This document shows, piece after piece, positions 4,553 to 64,000 of a stretch of DNA of 64,000 bases (its first letter is position 1; each line of letters opens with the position of its first letter). The notes below the pieces were generated by a model. The model was not told the DNA's origin. It saw only the letters and a list, made by a program, of their open reading frames with translations, and searched no databases. This stretch comes from Xanthostigma xanthostigma. Taxonomy: Eukaryota > Arthropoda > Insecta > Raphidioptera > Raphidiidae. The stretch covers positions 25,444,465 through 25,508,464 of the forward strand of contig OY754468.1 of NCBI GenBank assembly GCA_963575645.1, written 5' to 3'. Made by a program: the position numbers and the translations under genes.

Positions 4553-6290
4553 GCCGTTGACTACAGCTTAGCTTAAAGTCCGCCACTGTTTCAAATAGAT
4601 TTGTCGCACTGTACGTTTTATATATAAGGTGCTCGATAGGGACGCGAGGGAGATGCTATGATGGTGATGTTGACAGAATATAACCGACACTTCTACTTGC
4701 TCCTCATCTCCACTCGGTCGGAAGGTTTGTTTGCCTGCTGTGAAAAGTGACGCTCAATTGTACTGCTCTGTAGACTTCATTATGTCAAGAGTTTGTTTCC
4801 TGAAGCCATTTTAAACATTTTTCCAGATACCTCTTATTTACATAGTAAGAATGTTGGTGTTGGGAAACACAATTTAACACTTTAATTTAAACGCCGAAAC
4901 TCTGTAGCGGCGTACATTGTTAGTTTCACTTTAGTTTTAATTGTTATTCTTGATGAAGTTGACTTTTTTGGCTGAATGAGTGTTGAGTTTGTTTTAAATT
5001 CGCCGTGAATTCTTCACCAAAAATACTTTCATCTGATAGGATGGGAAAAGTCGTTACTATGTGATCACAGTGACTGTTACTTCAATTACACAAAAATCAC
5101 AGTGAAAAATCACCATGACTTTGTTAGTTCAGTCAGACTATAATTATACACAACACATAAATCACTTTTACTTCACTTGCACATGCTCGGCTGTAGCCGA
5201 TCAACGCCGAATGCCGCCCGACCGAGTAAACACTCGGTCGGACGTTACGTCGGCGTTGGTCGGCTACTCGGTTGGAGCGAGCGTCGTGATTGTGATGACA
5301 GAAAAGCATACGTTACTGTACGTCACTTTGGAACGTAGTTATTTCCGTGTCAGATCAGTGGTCTTTTTAGACGGCTGGATCACGGTGATTTTTTTATTTT
5401 GAAGTTATTTATTTCCCAACTCTATCAGTTGCTGCTATTGCACTTTTTAATAATTTAGATTCCTTGACGATGCAAGTTCAAAATGGTGTGAAAAATTTCA
5501 CCTTGTAGAAGTCGGATTCTATTCTCATGATTTTCCTGGATGCATTCCACAATCGAAAATGGTTTAAGTACACTTATAAGTTTTTTAAAAATGGAAATTA
5601 GAAAAAAACAAGAAAAAGAGTACCATATATTTACCGTAATTATCAATATAGTATCAAGTTTAATTATTATAATAATTTTCAATTGATGTTAATGCAAATA
5701 GGTAAAGGGATAACATTTTTGGAAACATGTTATCTCGTCTAGGTGTTACACAAAAATATAAAACAAGATAACTGCAGACATTGGTTCCATCAGCCCTATT
5801 TTATACATCGAAATTCATGATTACTGTGCATCAGACATAGCTAACCTTTTTTCCACCTACGTGTCACTTTTTTTCAAAAATGTTTAATTTAGCCATGACG
5901 TGCCAATAAGCAGCCAGAGAAATTTAGTTGTCAAAAGAAAATTTATCAAACAGATGAAAATAATAGTTTCGATAATACATTGAGCGTCATGAAACTTTTT
6001 CGTATTTGTTATTTGGTGATAGTCAATTTTTGATGTGAAACATCTAATGGCGCGTTTGGATGGGAGTAAGACCGTGGAATTGACGCTTCACTTTTATGGG
6101 AGGACGTTACGTTTGTGTGTGTTGGTTTATACATGGCTTTAGTTGAAAGCGACATCTAGATAATAGAGCGAAATGTAGTTATTACAATTTCGCTTTTCAT
6201 ATTTCACATCTGCCTGGCGTTCTATGAACGACTCACATTTTTTTTTTGTGACATCTAGCATATGTTTTAATTATTTTGATTTTGCATCTC
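4553..6290. other. Gene-free stretch with one stem-loop
   Basis: Apart from the stem-loop at 5191-5275, no repeat or gene is recognised. The short frames here lack codon bias and known motifs. Confidence 0.5.
5191..5275. repeat. GC-rich stem-loop
   Basis: GTAGCCGATCAACGCCGA ... CGACCGAGT pairs with ACTCGGTCG ... TCGGCGTTGGTCGGCTAC around a 3-4-nt loop at about 5230. Stem arms are about 38 nt with a short internal mismatch region. It is probably the centre of a small palindromic MITE; the outer ends were not resolved. Confidence 0.65.
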
Positions 6291-6295
6291 AATCA

Positions 6296-6366
6296 ATGCC
6301 GTGCCAATAATAATTTGTCGCTTGCCACCTGGAGCACGCGTGCCATAGGTTGGCCATCCCTTCTGT
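6296..6366 (-). mobile_element. hAT-like element end
   Basis: Read on the minus strand from 6366, the sequence begins GGGATGGCCAACCTATGGCA and continues CGCGTGC...AGGTGGCAAGC, the wording of a widespread hAT terminus. The opposite end was not found, so this is a fragment. The overlapping minus-strand frame (6293-6646) is probably fortuitous. Confidence 0.4.
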
Positions 6367-6704
6367 TAGTTCTGATTTGAAACATATGACGAAAGACATG
6401 TTGTAATATGGTGAATAAGGAAACAAGTGAATTGCAGTGTAAGTAATTCATCCAAAGAACTGCGACAATAAAAGGCAAACAACCCGTGTCTTGATAACTC
6501 GCCACATTAATTTTAACGCTGATATATTTCAAGCCCTGACTTCTATGAGTTGTTACGTAGATATAATAATATATTGGACGCTCAATAGGAAGGTGCAGGA
6601 TTAAATGCAACAGAATCTGCTTCTGATGGCTTTCGGAGCACTCCATTTAGTGGATTTACATATTATGTGAGAAATTCATTCTAAAAGACCTGGGCAGGGC
6701 CTTG

Positions 6705-7131
6705 TTAAGAGTATTCGTCCCTGCAAATACCCCCTGCACCCTTCATCTCAAATCTTTTCCCCTCGCCTAAAAACGGTTCGCGCTCTTCCGACGCTATTTT
6801 TAAAGCTAGAGGGTTCTGGTAAACGCCAAATGAAAGACAAAGAATCAGACTACAGATCCTTCAGGCGATTTTTTTGAAAAAAAAATCCTGAAAAAACTTA
6901 CAACCTTTCGAAAAAGATAATAAGTTACGTAATATTTCACACGTAGGCGAAACTGTTTTTCAAAAAATTCGCCTGAAGGATCTGTAGTCTGATTCTTTGT
7001 CTTTCATTTGGCGTTTACCAGAACCCTCTAACTTTAAAAATAGCAGAGGAGAGCGCGAACCGTTTTTAGGCGAGGGGAAAAGATTTGAGATGAAGGGTGC
7101 AGGGGGTATTTGCAGGGACGAATACTCTTAA
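6705..7131. mobile_element. TTAA-flanked foldback MITE
   Basis: Two arms of about 175 bp (6709-6880 and 6958-7127) are nearly perfect inverted repeats, beginning GAGTATTCGTCCCTGCAAAT and ending with the complement. TTAA lies immediately outside both ends (6705-6708 and 7128-7131), as expected for piggyBac-type insertion. The loop is about 75 bp of AT-rich DNA. High arm identity suggests recent insertion or strong arm homogenisation. No protein is encoded. Confidence 0.8.
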
Positions 7132-7299
7132 TACAAAAAAATGTGTTTTTTTGGTTTCGTAAGTAAATTACTGACTCACTGAGTAGGTCTACAGTAAATG
7201 TATGCAGTGAATAAAAACAATATATTTTTACCATTCCAACTTTACAAGTAGGGCATGGTGCTAATTTAAGTCAAGATTAACTTGTCACAATTCTACATT

Positions 7300-7590
7300 A
7301 TTTTTTCGGTTTAAGGTCCCCCGAATCCAACAAAACTTATTTCTGGAAACAGTCTGTTTGATTGTTTGTCTGTGAGCATGATACAGGTTAAACGGATGAG
7401 TGGATTGAATTCAAAATTTGAAATGATATTTGACTTACAATTATGAAGAGCCATTTTGTTTTTGGGGAATGTCGGCGCATGAGCAGAACAAATATGCGCT
7501 ATAACGTGTTTTCTGTCGCATGGTTGTATTTTTCATAATGGTTTATTATTTTATTTATTTTTCCAAAAAAGTTTTAAAAAAATGTTTTTC
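7300..7590 (+). repeat. Dispersed repeat family X, copy 1
   Basis: It contains GTCTGTGAGCATGATACAGG, AAACGGATGAGTGGATTGAA and TTTTTGGGGAATGTCGGCGC. The inverted copy is at 26390-26665, and a third partial copy lies inside family A copy 1 (about 1205-1400). Type unknown. Confidence 0.6.
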
Positions 7591-7781
7591 TAAACAAAAA
7601 TTTTGAAAATAAAAAAAAATCGACTGTTCTTTTATTTTGAAGATTTGTCAAAAAGAAATTAGTTAGCTGACAAGTATGTTTTGATTAATTTTCACGTACG
7701 ACACCATTTATATACTTAATACTAACCGTTACCCAGGCCATCGCGCGCGTTTACAGAAATTTTATTTTCATTATTATAATA

Positions 7782-8278
7782 CAGTGTAACCTCTTTATAA
7801 CGTCCTTCGTTATAACGAAAAACTCCCTATAACGTAGACATTTTTACAATTTGGTTGGTTTACCTTAAAACCCATACATTAATACCCTCTTTATAGCGCA
7901 GCAGCCATTCTCTATTACGAAGAAATATGTTCATATTTAGGCGTTAGCAAATGTTTACAGACGTAAAGAGAACGATTCTAAACCATCACCAACTATTCAA
8001 CAAGCACTTGATGCCGCCAAATTTATCGAAAAATTCCTATTGTTTAATGAAAATGATTCCACCACATCCCAAGCTACGCATAAGATACTTAGTAAAATAC
8101 AAAACAAATATTGGTATAGCAAAAAACGTCAGGCAAAGTTAACAGACTATATGTGTTTGTAATAAATTAATTAGGTGAAATTTGGGTATTTTTCTTTCTT
8201 CCCTCCATATAACGGAAACTCTTTGTAACGAAAAAAAATGCTCGGTCCCTTGAGATTCGTTATAAAGAGGTTACACTG
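7782..8278 (+). mobile_element. pogo/Tigger-type MITE
   Basis: Terminal inverted repeats CAGTGTAACCTCTTTATAAC and its complement are bounded by TA on both sides (7780-7781 and 8279-8280). This is the standard structure of the pogo/Tigger branch of Tc1/mariner. At 497 bp it is internally deleted and retains only the C-terminal end of the transposase. Confidence 0.88.
7980..8162 (+). pseudogene. Tigger-type transposase, C-terminal remnant
   Basis: Sixty codons stay open and end in TAA. They read TIQQALDAAKFIEKFLLFNE and then KYWYSKKRQAKLTDYM, the typical helical tail of Tigger/pogo transposases after the DDE domain. The N-terminal DNA-binding and catalytic parts are absent, so it cannot work. 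It lies inside the TA-flanked element, which fixes its origin. An unrelated local element (22295-22775) keeps the opposite, N-terminal piece of a similar transposase. Confidence 0.7.
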
Positions 8279-55468: not shown

Positions 55469-56456
55469 AACCATCTAATGTGGTTAAACTTCCTGGTTTG
55501 TAGAACATTAGATTCTATTAACACAAGAACCAATAATTGATCAACATATAATCGTTCTTTAAGTTAAATTTTGATCAAAAGTGTAAATTACATGGTTTCA
55601 ATCGATCAGTTATATTATTCGAGCAAAATTGATTTTTAAATTCGACTATCATATTATGCTTTTTTATAAAAAGTGAGTGCAAAAAATCAGATTTTCATAT
55701 TTCCCTCGTACTATACGAGAAGAGCTGTATCGATTTTAATTAACTCCTTATAGGTTTTAGAGATAATAAAATTTTTTTAAACAAAATATTATTTATTTTT
55801 TGTAACTACGCTGTACAATAATTATTATTTACGTTATAACTGAGTGATCTGCCATATATATAGATGATTTAACAGTGTTCATTTTTTAATTCAAGCATTT
55901 TGCTCTAAAAAATAAGTTTGTACCTATATGTTAAGAGCCCGTTTCCCCTGGTTTTCTCAATGCAATACAGTGGTCTGCGGTCCCGTATAAATCTGATCGT
56001 AAAACGAGAGATAAAATTATGAAAAATTATTTTTATGGAGATTAAGGATCAATCTATGTCCCTATTGTACCATTTTTTTAATTTTTTTAGCAGAAGATTT
56101 TTTAAAAAAATTTTAAAAACCGTAAAAAGTGTCTTTTAAAAGCATTCGCCATTATTTAACAAAGTAAAAAATGAAAAATTTGTTACAATACGGACATAGA
56201 TTGATCCTTAATATAACTAGAAAAAAATATGGCGTAGCCTGTTTTCCAAAATTACGACCCAGTTTATACGGGAAGCCGTAGCTCTGCAATGAAAAAATAT
56301 CGTAATATGTTGAATTGACTGGTGCTGTAACTACGGAAAGAACGGGTGTTTTTGAAATTATCATCTGTGCTGGCATGTGCCGTTAAAATTTAGGGCTGGG
56401 TTGTATACTATAATATAGTGGTTTGATATATTCGTTGCAACGATTTTAATTTAAAG
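55469..56456. other. Unassigned AT-rich DNA
   Basis: Short inverted words around 56040 and 56200 (GATTAAGGATCAATCTATGT and complement) hint at a decayed palindromic element. No gene. Confidence 0.45.
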
Positions 56457-57400
56457 TTCGCTGCATACGAGGCTGGATTTGCCGCTAGATTTCACAACTA
56501 GTTTTCTTAATTGCTATTATGTGCTCGCTTCACACAAGGGCGTAGATATTTTTTTTTCTAGGGGGCGGGGTATAAAGCTAAAGAAATCAATATTTTTAAG
56601 TTTTATTAATAGGAATAAACACCAAAACCAAATGACTAAACTAAAAAACTTTGTTTTGGGTAGAATTTGAAGAGCCAAAAAAAAGTCTTTTTCATATAGG
56701 CACACGGGTCTCGTAAAATTCACGTAATAATGCGGGACATTTCCTATAAATACGGGACACAGAGCTTTAATGCAGGACTGACCAGGAGTATGAAACTCAA
56801 TACTATTCGAGCTTCTCTTATTTGTCTGAAGGAATAATTTTAATGCCAACATGATAGCATGAAAATTGATGAAAATATACTTTTGACGAAATGACGCCAG
56901 CTCACCAAAGCGCATCAAAGCGGGAGTTTCAAAATTGTCTACTTATGTTATGAACAATATTATTTAATAAAAAAGGATGAAAAACTGTTCAATTCTTACA
57001 AAATTACAATTATAAGACGAAGTGTATTTTAAACAAAAACCATTTTGTTCGAAACGTGCTTGTTGTGACAACACCATTTCTAGGGCAGCTACGTACACAC
57101 ACCATTTTACACAGTAGGTATTAAAATCATTCCTTGTCATTTAAGAGGTCACCTTGCCATCACACAAGACATCTTTACAAACACACACTATGTCATAATG
57201 TTTGTTTGTGGTCCTTTGTTCATGTCGCCCACGTGACAAGATACTGTTTCCAGATTGGTTCTTGCTCAGAGCCAGCAGATGACCTTAAAAGAACAATAGC
57301 CCTTGTTCTTATTTTAATTTTGTGAGCTAGCAGGCGAGCCCACAGTGGCTTCATTTCCAGCTTTGTACCAACAGAAGTCCAGCGTTTCAACATGGATTAT
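56457..57400. mobile_element. Family U element, copy 2, disrupted
   Basis: CGCTGCATACGAGGCTGGAT and GTGCTCGCTTCACAC at the left match the right end of 18632-19053 in inverse. The other side (GTGGCTTCATTTCCAGC, AACAGAAGTCCAGCG) matches its left end. CACGTGACAAGATACTG is shared with copy 3. The middle (about 56535-57060) is unrelated DNA, probably inserted; the 133-codon minus-strand frame there is not recognisable. Confidence 0.5.
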
Positions 57401-57561
57401 CGCCGTGGAAAAAAAAAAGATTACCTTTGTCAGCAGTACGTAAGAAAAAATGTAACATTGCCAAATATAATAGGTAAATATTTTATCTATAATACTTATT
57501 TTATTGATTTATATTGATATTTAACTTCCAATAGGAAGTTATTGTAATGGGTTAGAAAATG

Positions 57562-58077
57562 ATGGAACGCCGTTTTGCTATTTAATAGTAGAAGAAAAAT
57601 TATCTGAAAAGTCAAAACAGAAAAAAAAATTGTCACAGCATAATTAAAATGGAACAGATTAATTTTATATCTATTGTATGCACATAAAATATATTGAGAA
57701 TTTTAATTATGAAGAGATAATAAAATAAATATGAATTCAAATAAACTTATGTACATAATAAAAATTCAGAATTAAAATTATGACAAAATAAGAATTTTGA
57801 ATTCAATGATGTACATAATAGAAATGTTTTAATTACTATGGCACGCCGTTTTACTATTTAATGGTAGAAAGAAAAATATCTAAAATTTAAAAAGTCAAAA
57901 CAGAAATAAATTTTTTTTGTCAAAACATAATTAAAATGAAATAGATTAAATTTATGTGTACACATAAAATTTATTGACAATTTTATTTATGAGTGGACAT
58001 AATAAAATAAAAATGAATTGTAATAAAATTATGTACATAATAAAAATTCAGAATTAAAAAACCAAAAAAATAAAAAA
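57562..58077. repeat. ~276-bp direct repeat upstream of the transposase
   Basis: ATGGAACGCCGTTTTGCTAT at 57562 and ATGGCACGCCGTTTTACTAT at 57838 start two similar units containing AAAAGTCAAAACAGAAA, CATAATTAAAATGGAACAGA and TGTACATAATAAAAATTCAG. The header recurs at 58321 and inverted at 58786-58815. Confidence 0.85.
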
Positions 58078-58716
58078 TGTGCATTCATTTTTTTAATTGG
58101 TTTCTAGTAAATTAACTGATTTATTATTATGTAGAGGCATAATTTTATTATTTTTGTCAGGATGTTTTTAGTTAGAAAATATTTATTATCACAACACAAT
58201 AAAATTATTTTCAATTATTTTTATGGCACCAGATAATAAAAATATTTTTATTTTTCCAAGAGAAGAATCCTAAATAATTATATAATTATGTCACCACATA
58301 ATTATAATTCGTCGTTTTTTATGGCACGCCGTTTTACTATTTAATAGTAAAATATTTTTCCAAAAATTATAAAAATATTTAACAATTTTAATTTCAGAAA
58401 AAAATTTTGAGTGAATTTTTTTATGTGGTGACATAATAAAAATACATTATTTTTATGTCATGACATAAAATTAAATGATAGGAAAAACGACGAATTATAA
58501 TTATGTCATGACATAAAAATAATGTATGTTTATTATGTCATGACATAATAATAATGTATTTTTATTATCTTGTGACATAAAAATAATTATAAATACTTTT
58601 ATTATGTGTAGAGATAATAAATATTTTTTTAAATAAAATCATCCTGACGAAAAATAATAAAACGTAATAATAAATCAGTTAATTCACTAGAAACCAATTC
58701 AAAAAATAAATGCAAC
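58078..58716. repeat. Large palindrome, ~240-bp arms
   Basis: TGCATTCATTTTTTTAATTG, GTTTCTAGTAAATTAACTGA, TTTTTGTCAGGATG and ATAATTATAATTCGTCGTTT run along the left arm (58078-58318). They return inverted along 58485-58716. The loop holds the GGCACGCCGTTTTACTATTT header and one of three TATGTCATGACATA palindromes (58454, 58502, 58534). A third copy of the outer arm is at 59007-59095, in direct orientation. Confidence 0.85.
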
Positions 58717-58825
58717 CACTAAAAAAAAATTCATTCGAATTTTTTTTTCTGAAATTAAAATTGTTATAACTTTTGGAAAAAAAATTTACTATTAAATAGT
58801 AAAACAGCGTGCCATAAATTACAAT

Positions 58826-58985
58826 TATGTACATAATAAAAATGTTTGAATTAAAACTATGTACATAATAAAGATGTTTGAATTAGAATTATATACATAA
58901 TGATAATGTTCGAATTAAAAGTATGTACATAATGAAAATGATTGAATTAAAATTATGTACATAATAGAAATGTTGGAAAAACCAT
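58826..58985. repeat. 32-bp minisatellite, five units
   Basis: Units start at 58826, 58858, 58890, 58922 and 58954. The consensus begins TATGTACATAATAAAAATG and ends TTGAATTAAAA. It ends about 200 bp before the transposase frame. Confidence 0.92.
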
Positions 58986-59191
58986 AAAAATAATAAAAAA
59001 TGTGCATTCATTTTTTGTATTGGTTTCTAGTAAATTAACCGGTTTATTATTATGTATGGGCATAATTTGATTATTTTCGTCAGGGTATTTTTAGTTAAAA
59101 AAATAATATTATATTAATAACTTATGTATTTTATTTTAGAAGTCGTCATTTAGATTTACCCTGCCTTACCAGAGAAATATTGCAAGGTAAA

Positions 59192-61699
59192 ATGTGCAGA
59201 AAAGAACATGAAAATAATCAAGTAAACAATTTGCATCCAATAGGTGAACAAGATTGTAGTACGGTTGAAAATATAAATCCTCCATTAAAAAATTTTCCGA
59301 ATTTTGAGCTAACGAACGAAAACAGTCCTCCTCAACAAACATTTCCAGAAATTGTAGTATCAGAGGAAGTAAGTTTAGAACCAGAATTTGCTTTAGAGGG
59401 AGCGCGAATCGTTCTTATGCAACAATTTTTGAAATCCCTCCAACAATTAAGCAATCATGCGCCACACTTTGGATGTAATTTTAATACATTACAGCTTGTA
59501 GCTGAAAAACGGAATGGATTGGAAAGTGAATTAGTTTTTAAATGCAATATGTGCAATTACGTCGATTCTGTGTCAACATATCCGCAGAAAAATTCAATTT
59601 CTAATATTAATACAGCCGCAGTGATTGGAAGTATGAATATTGGCATCGGTCATTCACAACTCCAGTCTTTACAGAGTGCTATGGAAATTCCTCCAATGGG
59701 ATTTAAAACATTTAAGACTGCACACACAGCAGCATGTAACGCTTGGGAAGAAACAGCAATCCAATCAATGCATGAAGCTGCCCAGGAAGAAGCGAGGTTA
59801 GCAGTTCAGTGTGGAAGTGTTACAGAAGAAGGAATACCTCTTATTACCGTAGTGTGTGATGGCAGCTGGGCTAAACGTTCGTATCGTGGTGGAGGGAATT
59901 ATAATTCGTTGTCGGGAGTAGCCGCAATTATTGGTTTCAAAACAAGAAAAATTTTATTTATTGGCATAAAAAATAAATATTGTGTCATATGTCAACGAGC
60001 TGTTAATAAAAATGTGAAAGCAAATGAACATTCTTGCTATAAAAATTGGTCCGGTTCATCTACAGCAATGGAATCTAATATAATTGCAGAAGGCTTCTGT
60101 AAAAGTTTAGAAATGTATAACATAATTTACCACAAAATGATCGCCGATGGAGACAGCAGTTGCTACCGTAAAATATTAGATTCGAGGCCATATAAAAATC
60201 ATACAGTAGAAAAAATAGAATGCCGCAATCATTTATTGCGCAATTACAGCAATAAATTAAAAGAAATTGGGAAAACAAGAAATGTGCCTATCGCCCTAAG
60301 AAAAATAATTAATGGCAGTATTTTAAAAGCAAGAACCGCTGTTACAAAAGCAATTTTGTATAGAAGAAGTGAAGACACGGACAAAAATCAAAAAATTCTT
60401 TTTTTAAAAAAAGATATCATCAACAGTGTTAGTCAAATTTTTGGCGAACATAAGGAATGTTCATTATTAAAATATTTCTGCTTAAAAGAAAATCCTGATC
60501 CCATAAATTATATGTCAGAGTTTAGAAGTTTTGGCTTAGAAGAACGTTTGATGGTAGCAGTACGCTATTTAGCCAATCACGCAAAAAGTTTAATTGAAAA
60601 CGTTGACAACAATACGGTGGAGCAATTTAATTCCATTATAGCCAAATATACAGGTGGTAAACGAATCAATTTTACTATGAGGCGTTGCTATCAAGCGCGA
60701 TGTATGGCTGCTACTCTGTCCCGAAATTCTGATGGAAGACCTCTGTACAAAGTACATAAATATTTAAATAATGATGCTAGTCCCGGAAACATTTTGAAAA
60801 AATTTGAAGAAACTAAAAAACGACATTCAGGAAGCGGAAAGAAAGGAAGATTGCCATTTTCTTCAAAAACCAAAGGACCAGATGAAGATTACGGTGAAGT
60901 ATGTCAAAAACTGGATTTAGATAAAGATGAGTTTGACGAAGAATGCCGTAAATTTAATAAAATATTATCCAAAATGGCCGAAGAAAGTCAAAATATTGAA
61001 AGGCGGACTAGATTGCAAGCAGACAGTATGGAGTGGCGAGAATATCGGAAAAAAGTGCTGACAGCTTCTAACTTCGGGAAAATCTGTAAAATGCGTCCCA
61101 CAACAAGTTGCAGATCCACTGTGAAATCTATTTTATATAAGGAAGATTTATATGTAAAATCTATTATGTGGGGCAGAAATAACGAAGATATTGCAAAAAA
61201 AGTAGTTGAGAATATCCTTAACACTAAAATAAACCACTGTGGTCTGTTTATTAATCCAAAATGGCCGTATTTAGGTGCAACGCCAGATGGAGTAACACAA
61301 GACGGATTAATTGTCGAAATTAAATGCCCGTTTTCTGCTAAAGATATGACAATTGCTGATGGTGTACAAGGAGGAGTGATAAAATATATTAAAAATACTA
61401 ATGGGACATATGAAATTAAAAAAAATCATGAATATTTTTATCAAATTCAAGGCCAATTAAATATCTGTGAAAAAAATATATGTATCTTTGCTGTATGGAC
61501 ACTGGCTGATTGTGTAATATTGAAAATTGAAAAAGACAGTGTTTTTTTTGAAAATGAAATGGTAAATAAACTAAAGACATTTTATTTCAATTGTTTAGTC
61601 CCAGAAATAATCGATCCACGACATACACGCAACATGGAAATAAGAGAGCCAAAATATATAACAGACGCTCAAAATAAAAAAAGGAAACGTCCGAATTAA
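59192..61699 (+). CDS. Mutator-like DDE transposase fused to a YqaJ-type exonuclease
   Basis: 835 codons without a break. Residues ~65-540 read as the Mutator-like transposase domain of invertebrate MULEs (Pfam Mutator type): an early C-x2-C (118/121), then TVVCDGSWAKRSY with D223, a C-x2-C/H-x-C insertion (264, 267, 280, 282; KNW follows), MIADGDSS with D319, C344/H347, and NNTVEQFNSIIAKYTGG with E477, giving a plausible DDE triad. A charged linker follows. Residues ~605-780 are a lambda-exonuclease/YqaJ fold: W615 and ITAS-like LTASNFG, GRNNE (661-665), GATPDG with D699, VEIKCP with E709 and K711, and YQIQGQL (750-756). All PD-(D/E)XK residues are present. KKRKRP at the C-terminus is a likely nuclear signal. 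An in-frame stop lies at 59096-59098. ATG 59192 is the first start; TTATTTTAG at 59131-59139 is a good splice acceptor, so a spliced 5' exon may add residues (SRHLDLPCLTREILQGK precedes this ATG). Confidence 0.9.
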   Translation: MCRKEHENNQVNNLHPIGEQDCSTVENINPPLKNFPNFELTNENSPPQQTFPEIVVSEEVSLEPEFALEGARIVLMQQFLKSLQQLSNHAPHFGCNFNTLQLVAEKRNGLESELVFKCNMCNYVDSVSTYPQKNSISNINTAAVIGSMNIGIGHSQLQSLQSAMEIPPMGFKTFKTAHTAACNAWEETAIQSMHEAAQEEARLAVQCGSVTEEGIPLITVVCDGSWAKRSYRGGGNYNSLSGVAAIIGFKTRKILFIGIKNKYCVICQRAVNKNVKANEHSCYKNWSGSSTAMESNIIAEGFCKSLEMYNIIYHKMIADGDSSCYRKILDSRPYKNHTVEKIECRNHLLRNYSNKLKEIGKTRNVPIALRKIINGSILKARTAVTKAILYRRSEDTDKNQKILFLKKDIINSVSQIFGEHKECSLLKYFCLKENPDPINYMSEFRSFGLEERLMVAVRYLANHAKSLIENVDNNTVEQFNSIIAKYTGGKRINFTMRRCYQARCMAATLSRNSDGRPLYKVHKYLNNDASPGNILKKFEETKKRHSGSGKKGRLPFSSKTKGPDEDYGEVCQKLDLDKDEFDEECRKFNKILSKMAEESQNIERRTRLQADSMEWREYRKKVLTASNFGKICKMRPTTSCRSTVKSILYKEDLYVKSIMWGRNNEDIAKKVVENILNTKINHCGLFINPKWPYLGATPDGVTQDGLIVEIKCPFSAKDMTIADGVQGGVIKYIKNTNGTYEIKKNHEYFYQIQGQLNICEKNICIFAVWTLADCVILKIEKDSVFFENEMVNKLKTFYFNCLVPEIIDPRHTRNMEIREPKYITDAQNKKRKRPN

Positions 61700-61726
61700 G
61701 ATATAAGACGTCATAATTTCAAACAA

Positions 61727-61800
61727 TGCCACCGTCGGGATACGAACCGCGAATATTTCCACACTCGCGGCGGACTGAGTTTCATTACTCCACAGTGACA
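61727..61800 (-). ncRNA. tRNA-like segment after the transposase
   Basis: Read on the minus strand, GTCACTG can pair with CGGTGGC as a 7-bp acceptor with a following A. TG then GAGT...ACTC form a D-like arm, TCCGC...GTGGA an anticodon-like stem, and GGTTCGTATCC is a box-B match. The T stem pairs only at two positions and U33 is absent. It may be a decayed tRNA, a SINE head or a transposon end that mimics a tRNA. Confidence 0.3.
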
Positions 61801-61844
61801 CAACAACATCAGTCAATCATTCTAATATTTATAGCAATGTGTAA

Positions 61845-62035
61845 CTGTTTTTTTATTCACATCATGCGAGAGCTAGATAACGCTAGATATGAACCTAAAC
61901 AAAAGTGAGAGTTATGGGTAATGTAAGGAAACAATTTTCACCTTTGATTCACCTATAACTCTCACTTCTTTGAAGGTTCATATCTAGCGTTACCTAAGAT
62001 AAAAATTAGCTCGCGCATGATGTGAAAAAAAAACA
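61845..62035. repeat. Hairpin sharing its ends with the adjoining foldback
   Basis: TTCACATCATGCGAGAGCTA and GATAACGCTAGATATGAACC return inverted at 61965-62030 (GGTTCATATCTAGCGTTACC and GCTCGCGCATGATGTGAA). The two arms flank an inner AGTGAGAGTTATGGGT and complement pair. The right arm doubles as the left end of 61985-62860. Confidence 0.8.
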
Positions 62036-62860
62036 GTTGGCATTCCATGTCAAAGTTGGAATGAACTTTGCTCGTAACTTTTTTTTTATCCTATAATGAA
62101 GTTTCATCAATGGAAAATAATTAAAAAACATTTTTTCAAATGAGTTGCAAAAATCAAAAATTTATCATTTTTTGGAATCTTTCAAGTTTATTTTTTGAAT
62201 ATCTCAAAAAATATTATACCTAGTTACAAAAATCGATCTTGGTTCATTTTAAAGAGGATCTTTGGGGCTAAAAATAAAAATATAATTGAACAACATTTTG
62301 AAAAATCAAAAAATTGCAACATTTTGAAATTTTGTAAAATGAATAAATCAAAAACTTATATTATTTTTTGACATATCTTCGAAAAAAGAAAAACACCTCT
62401 CTGAAAATTTCATGGTCTTTTAAAAACAATTAGAGGTAGGTGCATAGTCTACAAAAAAATTTGAGCCAAAAAAATAGAAGTTTTTGATTTATTGATTTTT
62501 GAAAATTTCAAAATGCTGCAAATTTTTGACTTTTCAAAAAATTTTTGCAAATATATTTTTATTTTTAGCCCCAAATATCCTCTTTAAAACCAAGGTCGAA
62601 CTACAATAGTTTTCGAGATATTCAAAAAATTATCTCGGAAGATTCCAAAAAATGACAAATTTTTAAATTTTGCAACTCATTTGAAAAATGTTTTTTTAAT
62701 TTTTTTCCATTGTTAAAACTTCGTTATAGGATAAAAGAAAAGTTTTGACCAAAGCTAATTCCAACAACTGGTCGATTTGACATGGAATGGTTCAACTGCT
62801 TTTTTTTATCATCATACGCGAGTTAATTTTTACCTTAGGTATCGCTAAACAGTGGTTCTT
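61985..62860. repeat. Large foldback, ~400-bp arms
   Basis: TAGCGTTACCTAAGATAAAA, CGCGCATGATGTGAAAAAA, GGCATTCCATGTCAAA, TTTTTTATCCTATAATGAAG, TGCAAAAATCAAAAATTTAT and GGGGCTAAAAATAAAAATAT run to about 62400 and return inverted from about 62450 to 62860 with moderate divergence. No reading frame. Its right edge abuts the transposase fragment exactly. Confidence 0.85.
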
Positions 62861-63124
62861 GCACTTAAAATACTGCTACTATTTATGTTTCTTAGAGCGA
62901 TAGGCACATTTCTTGTTTTTTCAATATCTTTTAATTTATTGCTGTAATTGCGTAATAAATGATTGCGGCATTCTATTTTTTCTACTGTATGATTTTATAT
63001 GGCCTGGAATCTAATATCTTACGGTAGCAAGTGCTGTCTCCATCGGCGATTTTTTGTGGTAAATTATGTTATACATTTCTAAACTCCTAGAGAAGCCTGC
63101 TGCAACTGTATTAGATTCCATAGC
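62849..63124 (-). pseudogene. Inverted fragment of a second transposase-exonuclease copy
   Basis: The minus strand closely matches 60066-60344 of the intact gene, corresponding to residues ~292-384 including the D319 motif (GCCGATGGAGACAGCA is conserved). Two single-base losses, one just before the D319 motif and one near codon 340, break the frame. Neither the rest of the transposase domain nor the nuclease is present on either side. It adjoins the foldback at 62848 and a 33-bp inverted repeat at 63154. High similarity implies a recent relative rather than an ancient paralogue. Confidence 0.9.
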
Positions 63125-63186
63125 TCATTCGTTAGCTCATAAGTTGGCTAATAGTTGTGTCACAGTGGAGTAAAGAAACTCAGTCA

Positions 63187-64000
63187 TAAATTAAATAATT
63201 AAATAAATAATAAGTATATAAAATAAATAATGAAATAATGAAAATAAATGTGTACTATTTTTTCCCTGAATTTCCCGAAAGTCCTATATTTTTGCAACTT
63301 TAAAAAAATACTTTTTTTTCGAAAAAAATGTGGCAACCCTAATTGTAACAAACAGTAGTTACACTTTACTGTATTATAGTTATTATTATGAATATACAAT
63401 AAATTTTTTTTCCATATTTTTGTGACATTTAATATCATTCTATTTTTTGTAAAATATTTCTTTGCAGATAATTTATGTTGTAATGTTTTGTAATTCTGTA
63501 TATAAAATGAATATAGCACATCCCTATTTGATATCTGCAGTCTATACGTGACTGTGTTAGTATACTAACACATGTAATAGTATGTATATCACTATAACCA
63601 GGTATATAATAATTCGGTTCTCTTTGTCAATCCTTCTCACATGTGTGAAAGATAGAGAGAGAGCATTCAATTCTCATAGACCACAATAGTTAGTTGTACT
63701 ATTATGAATGGAATGTTTCAAAATGTTTCCTCACCACACGCCGCAAAATACAGCTTCCCCTCTGCTATCGGCAAACGGGCTCTTAAATCCCTGTTTACCA
63801 CGAGAGCAGTTCAGTACCAGCCGGTATATAATATATACGTCCATAGATTTACTATTGTCCATATCAGTATATCTATGGGACGCTGCGCGTTCTTCTGCTG
63901 TTTTATCAGCACAAACCGCGTTTCGAATGGTCGAGATAAATCCCGTGCGTCCAGTTATCTGATTAAGATTCTTTTATTTGTTAAAATTATCCTTGAACTC
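63187..64000. other. Unassigned gene-free DNA
   Basis: No gene or repeat recognised to the end of the window. Confidence 0.45.

Follow-up and report, generated by a model that had tools for sequence, protein, structure and literature searches.

A TTAA-bounded transposon with a transposase-exonuclease fusion gene in Xanthostigma xanthostigma, most probably of the KolobokE lineage

The 623-Mb genome of Xanthostigma xanthostigma (28 contigs) carries, within the window analysed here (the whole 64-kb stretch C5:25444465-25508464), an element that is best explained, taken as a whole, as a TTAA-specific DNA transposon of the KolobokE type which moves ~4-kb relatives in trans; we give this reading a probability of about 0.88. 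The element encodes a transposase fused to an exonuclease, an arrangement that is already known as the KolobokE lineage and is not a new system. The find itself is unremarkable: one more well-preserved member of a named lineage. The element keeps its gene intact, has clean ends and is accompanied by many gene-less relatives with those ends; it provides a usable start for testing the role of the nuclease, and it could help explain why transposons adopt lambda-type exonucleases.

The element, its ends and its copies

The transposon extends over 7856 bp from TTAA to TTAA (window positions 55931..63786, forward strand), as delimited by the block it has in common with a second full copy on contig C8. 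When 24 kb around the gene were compared with 20 kb around the C8 copy, a single common block was found, and the flanks were unrelated. The genome holds two such full copies, C5:25500395 in the window and C8:10817822 (7905 bp), which lie on different chromosomes and are 98% identical. Aligned over the 7856 bp, they show 60 substitutions and 61 gap columns; 9 substitutions and no gaps fall in the 2520 bases of the gene, with 18 substitutions in the 3249 bases of the 5′ part and 33 in the 2087 bases of the 3′ part.

On the left, the element begins TTAA-GAGCCCGTTT, with the presumed target-site duplication at 55931..55934 and the terminal inverted repeat at 55935..55944 (forward strand); on the right it ends AAACGGGCTC-TTAA, with the repeat at 63773..63782 (reverse strand) and the second presumed duplication at 63783..63786. 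These assignments come from reading the ends of the copies and, for the terminal repeats, from the C5/C8 comparison as well. The terminal bases just inside TTAA are GA...TC. In all 12 copies read (2 full and 10 gene-less), TTAA was present on both sides and the terminal repeats were intact. Outside the TTAA, a direct repeat of 3–11 bp was found in 0 of the 12 copies, and a 2-base match in three. Neither full copy yielded an empty site when its joined flanks were used as a query: the C5 query returned both true flanks and a further 15 matches, all confined to the left flank (query 4-132), and the C8 query both true flanks alone. We take TTAA to be the target-site duplication on the basis of the family's known behaviour.

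A whole-element search yielded, among the best 40 of 5811 candidates, the two full copies (100% and 98%), one broken copy on C13 and 35 gene-less copies. The latter match element positions 1 (or 2) to 1914 at 92–96%, and many also match positions 2059-2199 and 7171-7856. Queries with the separate ends gave 99–100% identity for the left end (best 40 of 247, all starting within 3 bases of the TTAA) and 96–100% for the right end (best 40 of 272). An exact 16-base end motif occurred 410 times (212 + 198), and a reversed-pattern control 0 times, so that there may be up to about 200 copies with common ends; only two of these ~200 keep the gene. In a sample made of the first 100 ends, from C1 and part of C2, 70 make up 35 facing pairs, which span 0.6–10.6 kb with a median of 4.2 kb, 26 of the 35 lying at 3.8–4.3 kb. 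The element is a recently mobile DNA transposon.

Two arrangements among the copies are recorded here as observations. At C2:25957856-25966807, two family copies in opposite orientation are separated by just 461 bp. One gene-less copy (L076, C10:12860600-12862100) contains an internal insert whose ends read ACTTCCCGC...GCGGGAAGT and which looks like a further nested transposon.

The fusion gene and its relatives

The gene occupies 59180..61699 on the forward strand, on which each feature of the protein given below also lies; the product has 839 aa if translation starts at the TTG and 835 aa if it starts at the ATG at 59192. The frame is far beyond chance, as judged by its Pfam E-values and by its longest rival, since the second longest ORF in the window has 161 aa; none of the window's nine other ORFs of at least 105 aa has a Pfam match. 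The original prediction of one unbroken frame holding a transposase and a phage-type exonuclease was borne out, with PF20700 and YqaJ domains in the same ORF, and the HMM search that it proposed recognised both halves. Its frame stands, but its start at 59140, 40 bases upstream of 59180, lies in another phase, which stops there. Its residues (D223/D319/E477 and D699/E709/K711) are correct if counted from the ATG; counted from the TTG, as we do throughout, they are D227/D323/E481 and D703/E713/K715. Both catalytic sets are indeed present, and likewise in the second full copy on C8.

The transposase domain (Pfam PF20700, residues 74-434, 59399..60481) was matched with an E-value of 4.5e-102. By their motifs we assigned D227 (VVCDGSW, 59858..59860) and D323 (ADGDSS, 60146..60148) as the first and second catalytic Asp, and E481 (NTVEQFN, 60620..60622), which lies beyond the PF20700 match, as the catalytic Glu. 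Motif reading also gave a CCHC zinc knuckle (C268, C271, H284, C286; 59981..60037) and a CxxH motif (C348-RN-H351; 60221..60232). Between CxxH and E481, H424, C427, C434 and H467 are candidate zinc ligands. The transposase part had 0 matches in the PDB.

The nuclease domain, residues 618-764 (61031..61471), was identified as YqaJ/lambda exonuclease-like by Pfam, alignment and profile. YqaJ (PF09588) matched these residues at E 1.1e-15, and Viral_alk_exo (PF01771) matched residues 602-703 at E 7.4e-10; the NCBIfam lambda-exonuclease model TIGR03033 scored 57.3 bits, under its cut-off of 68.05. In a single-sequence phmmer search, residues 656-724 matched lambda exonuclease gap-free at E 5e-4, aligning E669, D703, E713 and K715 with chain positions 85, 119, 129 and 131. 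Positions 119, 129 and 131 (D, E and K) and the further E85 are what we take to be the catalytic residues of lambda exonuclease, and this alignment places the PD-(D/E)XK site of the fusion protein at D703, E713 and K715 (61286..61324). A profile built from eight relatives recovered LHK exonuclease (3syy, 6e-28) and lambda exonuclease (1avq, 8e-23). The columns of lambda E85, D119 and K131 were invariant in all eight readable aligned sequences, as were the adjoining P and C. Among phage records, 26 matched, the best at 28% identity; in the 15 inspected, the annotation, where there was one, read exonuclease or hypothetical. Viral contigs gave one weak nuclease relative (27%). By its alignments, the nuclease half appears to belong to the lambda exonuclease/YqaJ family, with conserved D, E and K.

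Across the genome we found 33 stretches matching PF20700 and 17 matching YqaJ, with the whole PF20700 profile in an open frame only at C5 and C8. Clustering took 55 of 57 search hits, dropping two inverted fragments that lie within the full copies on C5 and C8, and added the 11 PF20700 and 6 PF09588 hits that were kept once those overlapping a hit of the first set had been left out. The result was 48 loci, of which 10 carry both parts, 24 the transposase alone and 14 the nuclease alone; C10:10849201, clustered as transposase only, also has nuclease sequence, which brings the counts to 11 with both and 23 with transposase only. More than half of the loci (27 of 48), and the majority of the broken KolobokE-type relics, lie on contig C10 at roughly 0.45–16.4 Mb, an uneven spread.

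The nuclease triad was intact at 13 of the 15 distinct nuclease places in which all three columns aligned, the exceptions being C3:21182, where Q replaces E, and C10:8974, where N replaces K. This count covered all loci longer than 100 bases, with C10:13886427, C2:27121202, C4:29857253, C10:10431093, C2:24221909 and C2:27790784 set aside; at C10:8969 the D column alone aligned, which placed it outside the count. Four of the 15 places look ISL2EU-type, three by an adjoining DDE_Tnp_4 ORF and one (C10:15145) by eye, from a common SWIM-like N-terminal part; among the remaining 11, the triad is intact at 9. The original prediction had named a nuclease half usually missing or mutated as the finding that would count against it. 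A mutated triad was seen at two of those 15 places. As to absence, nuclease sequence lies close downstream at 11 of 34 transposase-bearing loci and none was within reach at the other 23, a figure that neither confirms nor excludes loss because the loci are mostly short and broken.

Nei-Gojobori dN/dS for the nuclease half was 0.24 against C8 (1 synonymous and 1 non-synonymous change) and 0.29 against the stop-free C13 piece (5 and 6); for the transposase it was 0.63 against C8 (2 and 5) and 0.39 against C13 (6 and 9). On so few changes, these values are suggestive of constraint at most.

One nuclease relative stands alone. At C3:21182670-21183539 (L047:5670-6539), an intact 289-aa ORF is 39% identical to the KolobokE nuclease. 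It carries Gln where the catalytic Glu would be, and no transposase match lies within the 10 kb examined. It could be domesticated or inactive.

Palindromes and the role of the nuclease

Inverted repeats are dense beside the frame, just as the original prediction had noted. Upstream lies a nested palindromic repeat (58320..58817) with TA-TGGCACGC...GCGTGCCA-TA ends, the unit of a dispersed family that matches many other places in the genome (787 candidates, best 40 scored). Downstream lies an 863-nt foldback (61985..62847, folding z -49), whose inner part from about 62056 likewise belongs to a dispersed repeat family and matches elsewhere at 76–86% (1135 candidates, best 40 scored). Because their families are spread over many other places, both blocks look like dispersed repeats inserted into the element. 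The exception among the inverted repeats is a 278-bp stretch at 62848..63125 (reverse strand), which derives from the element's own transposase gene: it is an inverted copy of 60064-60343, 91% identical, and is found in the C8 and C13 copies as well. The gene-less copy L076 joins at the last ~25 bases of this stretch.

Other repeats were noted in the same regions. Just upstream of the gene, 58817..58978 holds an array of five 32-bp repeat copies, all of which contain the palindrome TATGTACATA or one very like it; the array could bind protein. The inverted transposase piece at 62848-63125 lies downstream of the gene, so that RNA read through into it could base-pair with the sense strand of the gene. 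The 32-bp inverted arms paired at 61773-63185 may or may not mark a nested transposon; no duplication was seen by eye in their flanks.

Binding of terminal repeats, excision and insertion at TTAA by the DDE domain are known behaviour of the family. By this precedent, we expect the short inverted repeats at the termini to be bound by the fusion protein, whose DDE domain would excise the element at TTAA and reintegrate it at a different TTAA. The protein would also move in trans the many ~4-kb gene-less relatives with the same ends, which we infer because those copies have common ends. Its lambda-exonuclease-like domain, if catalytic and of 5′-to-3′ polarity, would in our preferred reading resect 5′ strands at the donor break; such resection would favour repair templated by the sister or homologue, which would leave a copy behind at the donor site. 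That the fusion protein might cut and then resect, as the original prediction had it, is reasonable. Of all the steps in the scheme, we are least sure of resection at the donor break, which we hold tentatively and prefer over its rivals.

What the nuclease acts on, and whether its catalysis matters, can be read in other ways. In the original prediction, resection and single-strand annealing of the inverted repeats that flank the gene would drive insertion or donor repair. Strong palindromes do flank the gene, but both blocks belong to families found away from the element, and the gene-less copies scored in the whole-element search lack any match to element positions 6055-6917, the 3′ foldback, and of the 5′ block match only 2059-2199. 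We therefore rejected the palindromes as part of the mechanism, both being repeat families dispersed genome-wide, and regard annealing of this kind as very improbable. A less remote alternative, still unlikely, is that the nuclease trims strands of the excised transposon or its intermediates, or removes abortive products, rather than acting at the donor break. The authors of PMC9587614, in the part of that paper available to us, propose such a role, by 3′-end degradation, for the unrelated DEDDh exonuclease of KolobokD; a lambda-type enzyme acting on the element's 5′ ends, however, would put the terminal repeats at risk, and these are intact in the 12 copies read. Somewhat less likely again, the nuclease half might serve to bind DNA or to oligomerise, or might be a passenger, its catalysis being irrelevant. 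The intact stand-alone relative on C3, with Gln for the catalytic Glu, would suit this reading, whereas the intact triad at 13 of 15 loci and the invariant E85, D119 and K131 columns, with P and C beside them, argue against it.

If resection at the donor break is the correct reading, cutting and resection could be coupled in one protein, and the transposase would itself select homology-directed repair of the donor and gain copies thereby. We consider this coupling possible, if doubtful, and we are equally hesitant about its corollary, that copies are gained by repair and not by replication timing. Were it true, then together with the separate nuclease ORF of ISL2EU it would mean that a coupled strategy has been adopted by two unrelated transposon groups.

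Family identity and comparison with known systems

The Kolobok superfamily is marked by TTAA duplications, 5′-RR/YY-3′ ends, a C/DxxH motif and a zinc finger before the last Glu, and KolobokP, E, D and 5 have a CCHC finger after the first Asp; the C/DxxH motif is common to MuDR and Kolobok (PMC9587614, available part). The window element fits KolobokE because every mark open to test matches. The family's copies are bounded by TTAA, with no empty site found for C5 or C8; the GA...TC termini agree with 5′-RR/YY-3′; C348-x2-H351 lies between D323 and E481; and C268/C271/H284/C286 lies downstream of D227, as in the KolobokE lineage. H424, C427, C434 and H467, as candidate residues, fit the order of the zinc finger before the last Glu.

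The label 'Mutator-like' in the original prediction did not hold. It is just the Pfam name of PF20700, since the copies are bounded by TTAA without a further 3–11 bp duplication, and the TTAA sites and printed motifs point to Kolobok and its KolobokE lineage. That name, together with the E-value of the match, would favour a Mutator-superfamily element (MULE) to which a nuclease had been added. MULEs produce 8–11 bp target-site duplications, and none of the 12 copies has one; on this target-site evidence we rejected MULE membership. The CCHC knuckle and TTAA are, in addition, marks of Kolobok in the available part of PMC9587614, and a MULE is highly unlikely. More improbable still is a host gene domesticated from a transposon. 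A single long intact frame under apparent constraint would be expected of such a gene, but the frame is present in two near-identical copies, each of them part of a full element that has terminal repeats, and the two elements lie on different chromosomes with unrelated sequence around them.

Our literature search found no functional study of KolobokE, and the available part of PMC9587614 gave no description of a role for the nuclease in its transposition. Compared by the described marks, rather than residue by residue, no feature was found that sets the window element apart from the KolobokE lineage as presented in the available part of that paper (Kojima and Bao 2022). KolobokD, with a DEDDh exonuclease, and KolobokP, with a His-Me finger nuclease, are likewise Kolobok elements with an added nuclease (PMC9587614, available part); their nuclease folds are unrelated to that of the window element. 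Lambda and LHK exonucleases (1avq, 3syy) resemble the nuclease half in their aligned D, E and K and another conserved E, but they are stand-alone phage enzymes, whereas the window domain is fused to a transposase.

The closest parallel in composition is ISL2EU, also a DDE transposon with a YqaJ exonuclease, which differs in its separate nuclease ORF, Harbinger-like transposase and AT duplication (PMC4482050, PMC9179366, available parts). The window element, with one fused frame containing PF20700 and with TTAA ends, is not a member of that group. The genome has three ISL2EU-like loci (L049, L050 and L053, at C5:7409, C1:38014 and C11:11478), at each of which a DDE_Tnp_4 ORF faces a separate YqaJ ORF, so that the KolobokE and ISL2EU types are both present in it and carry related exonucleases. 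Eukaryotic DNA transposons have taken up lambda-type exonucleases in at least two unrelated groups, KolobokE as a fusion and ISL2EU as a separate ORF.
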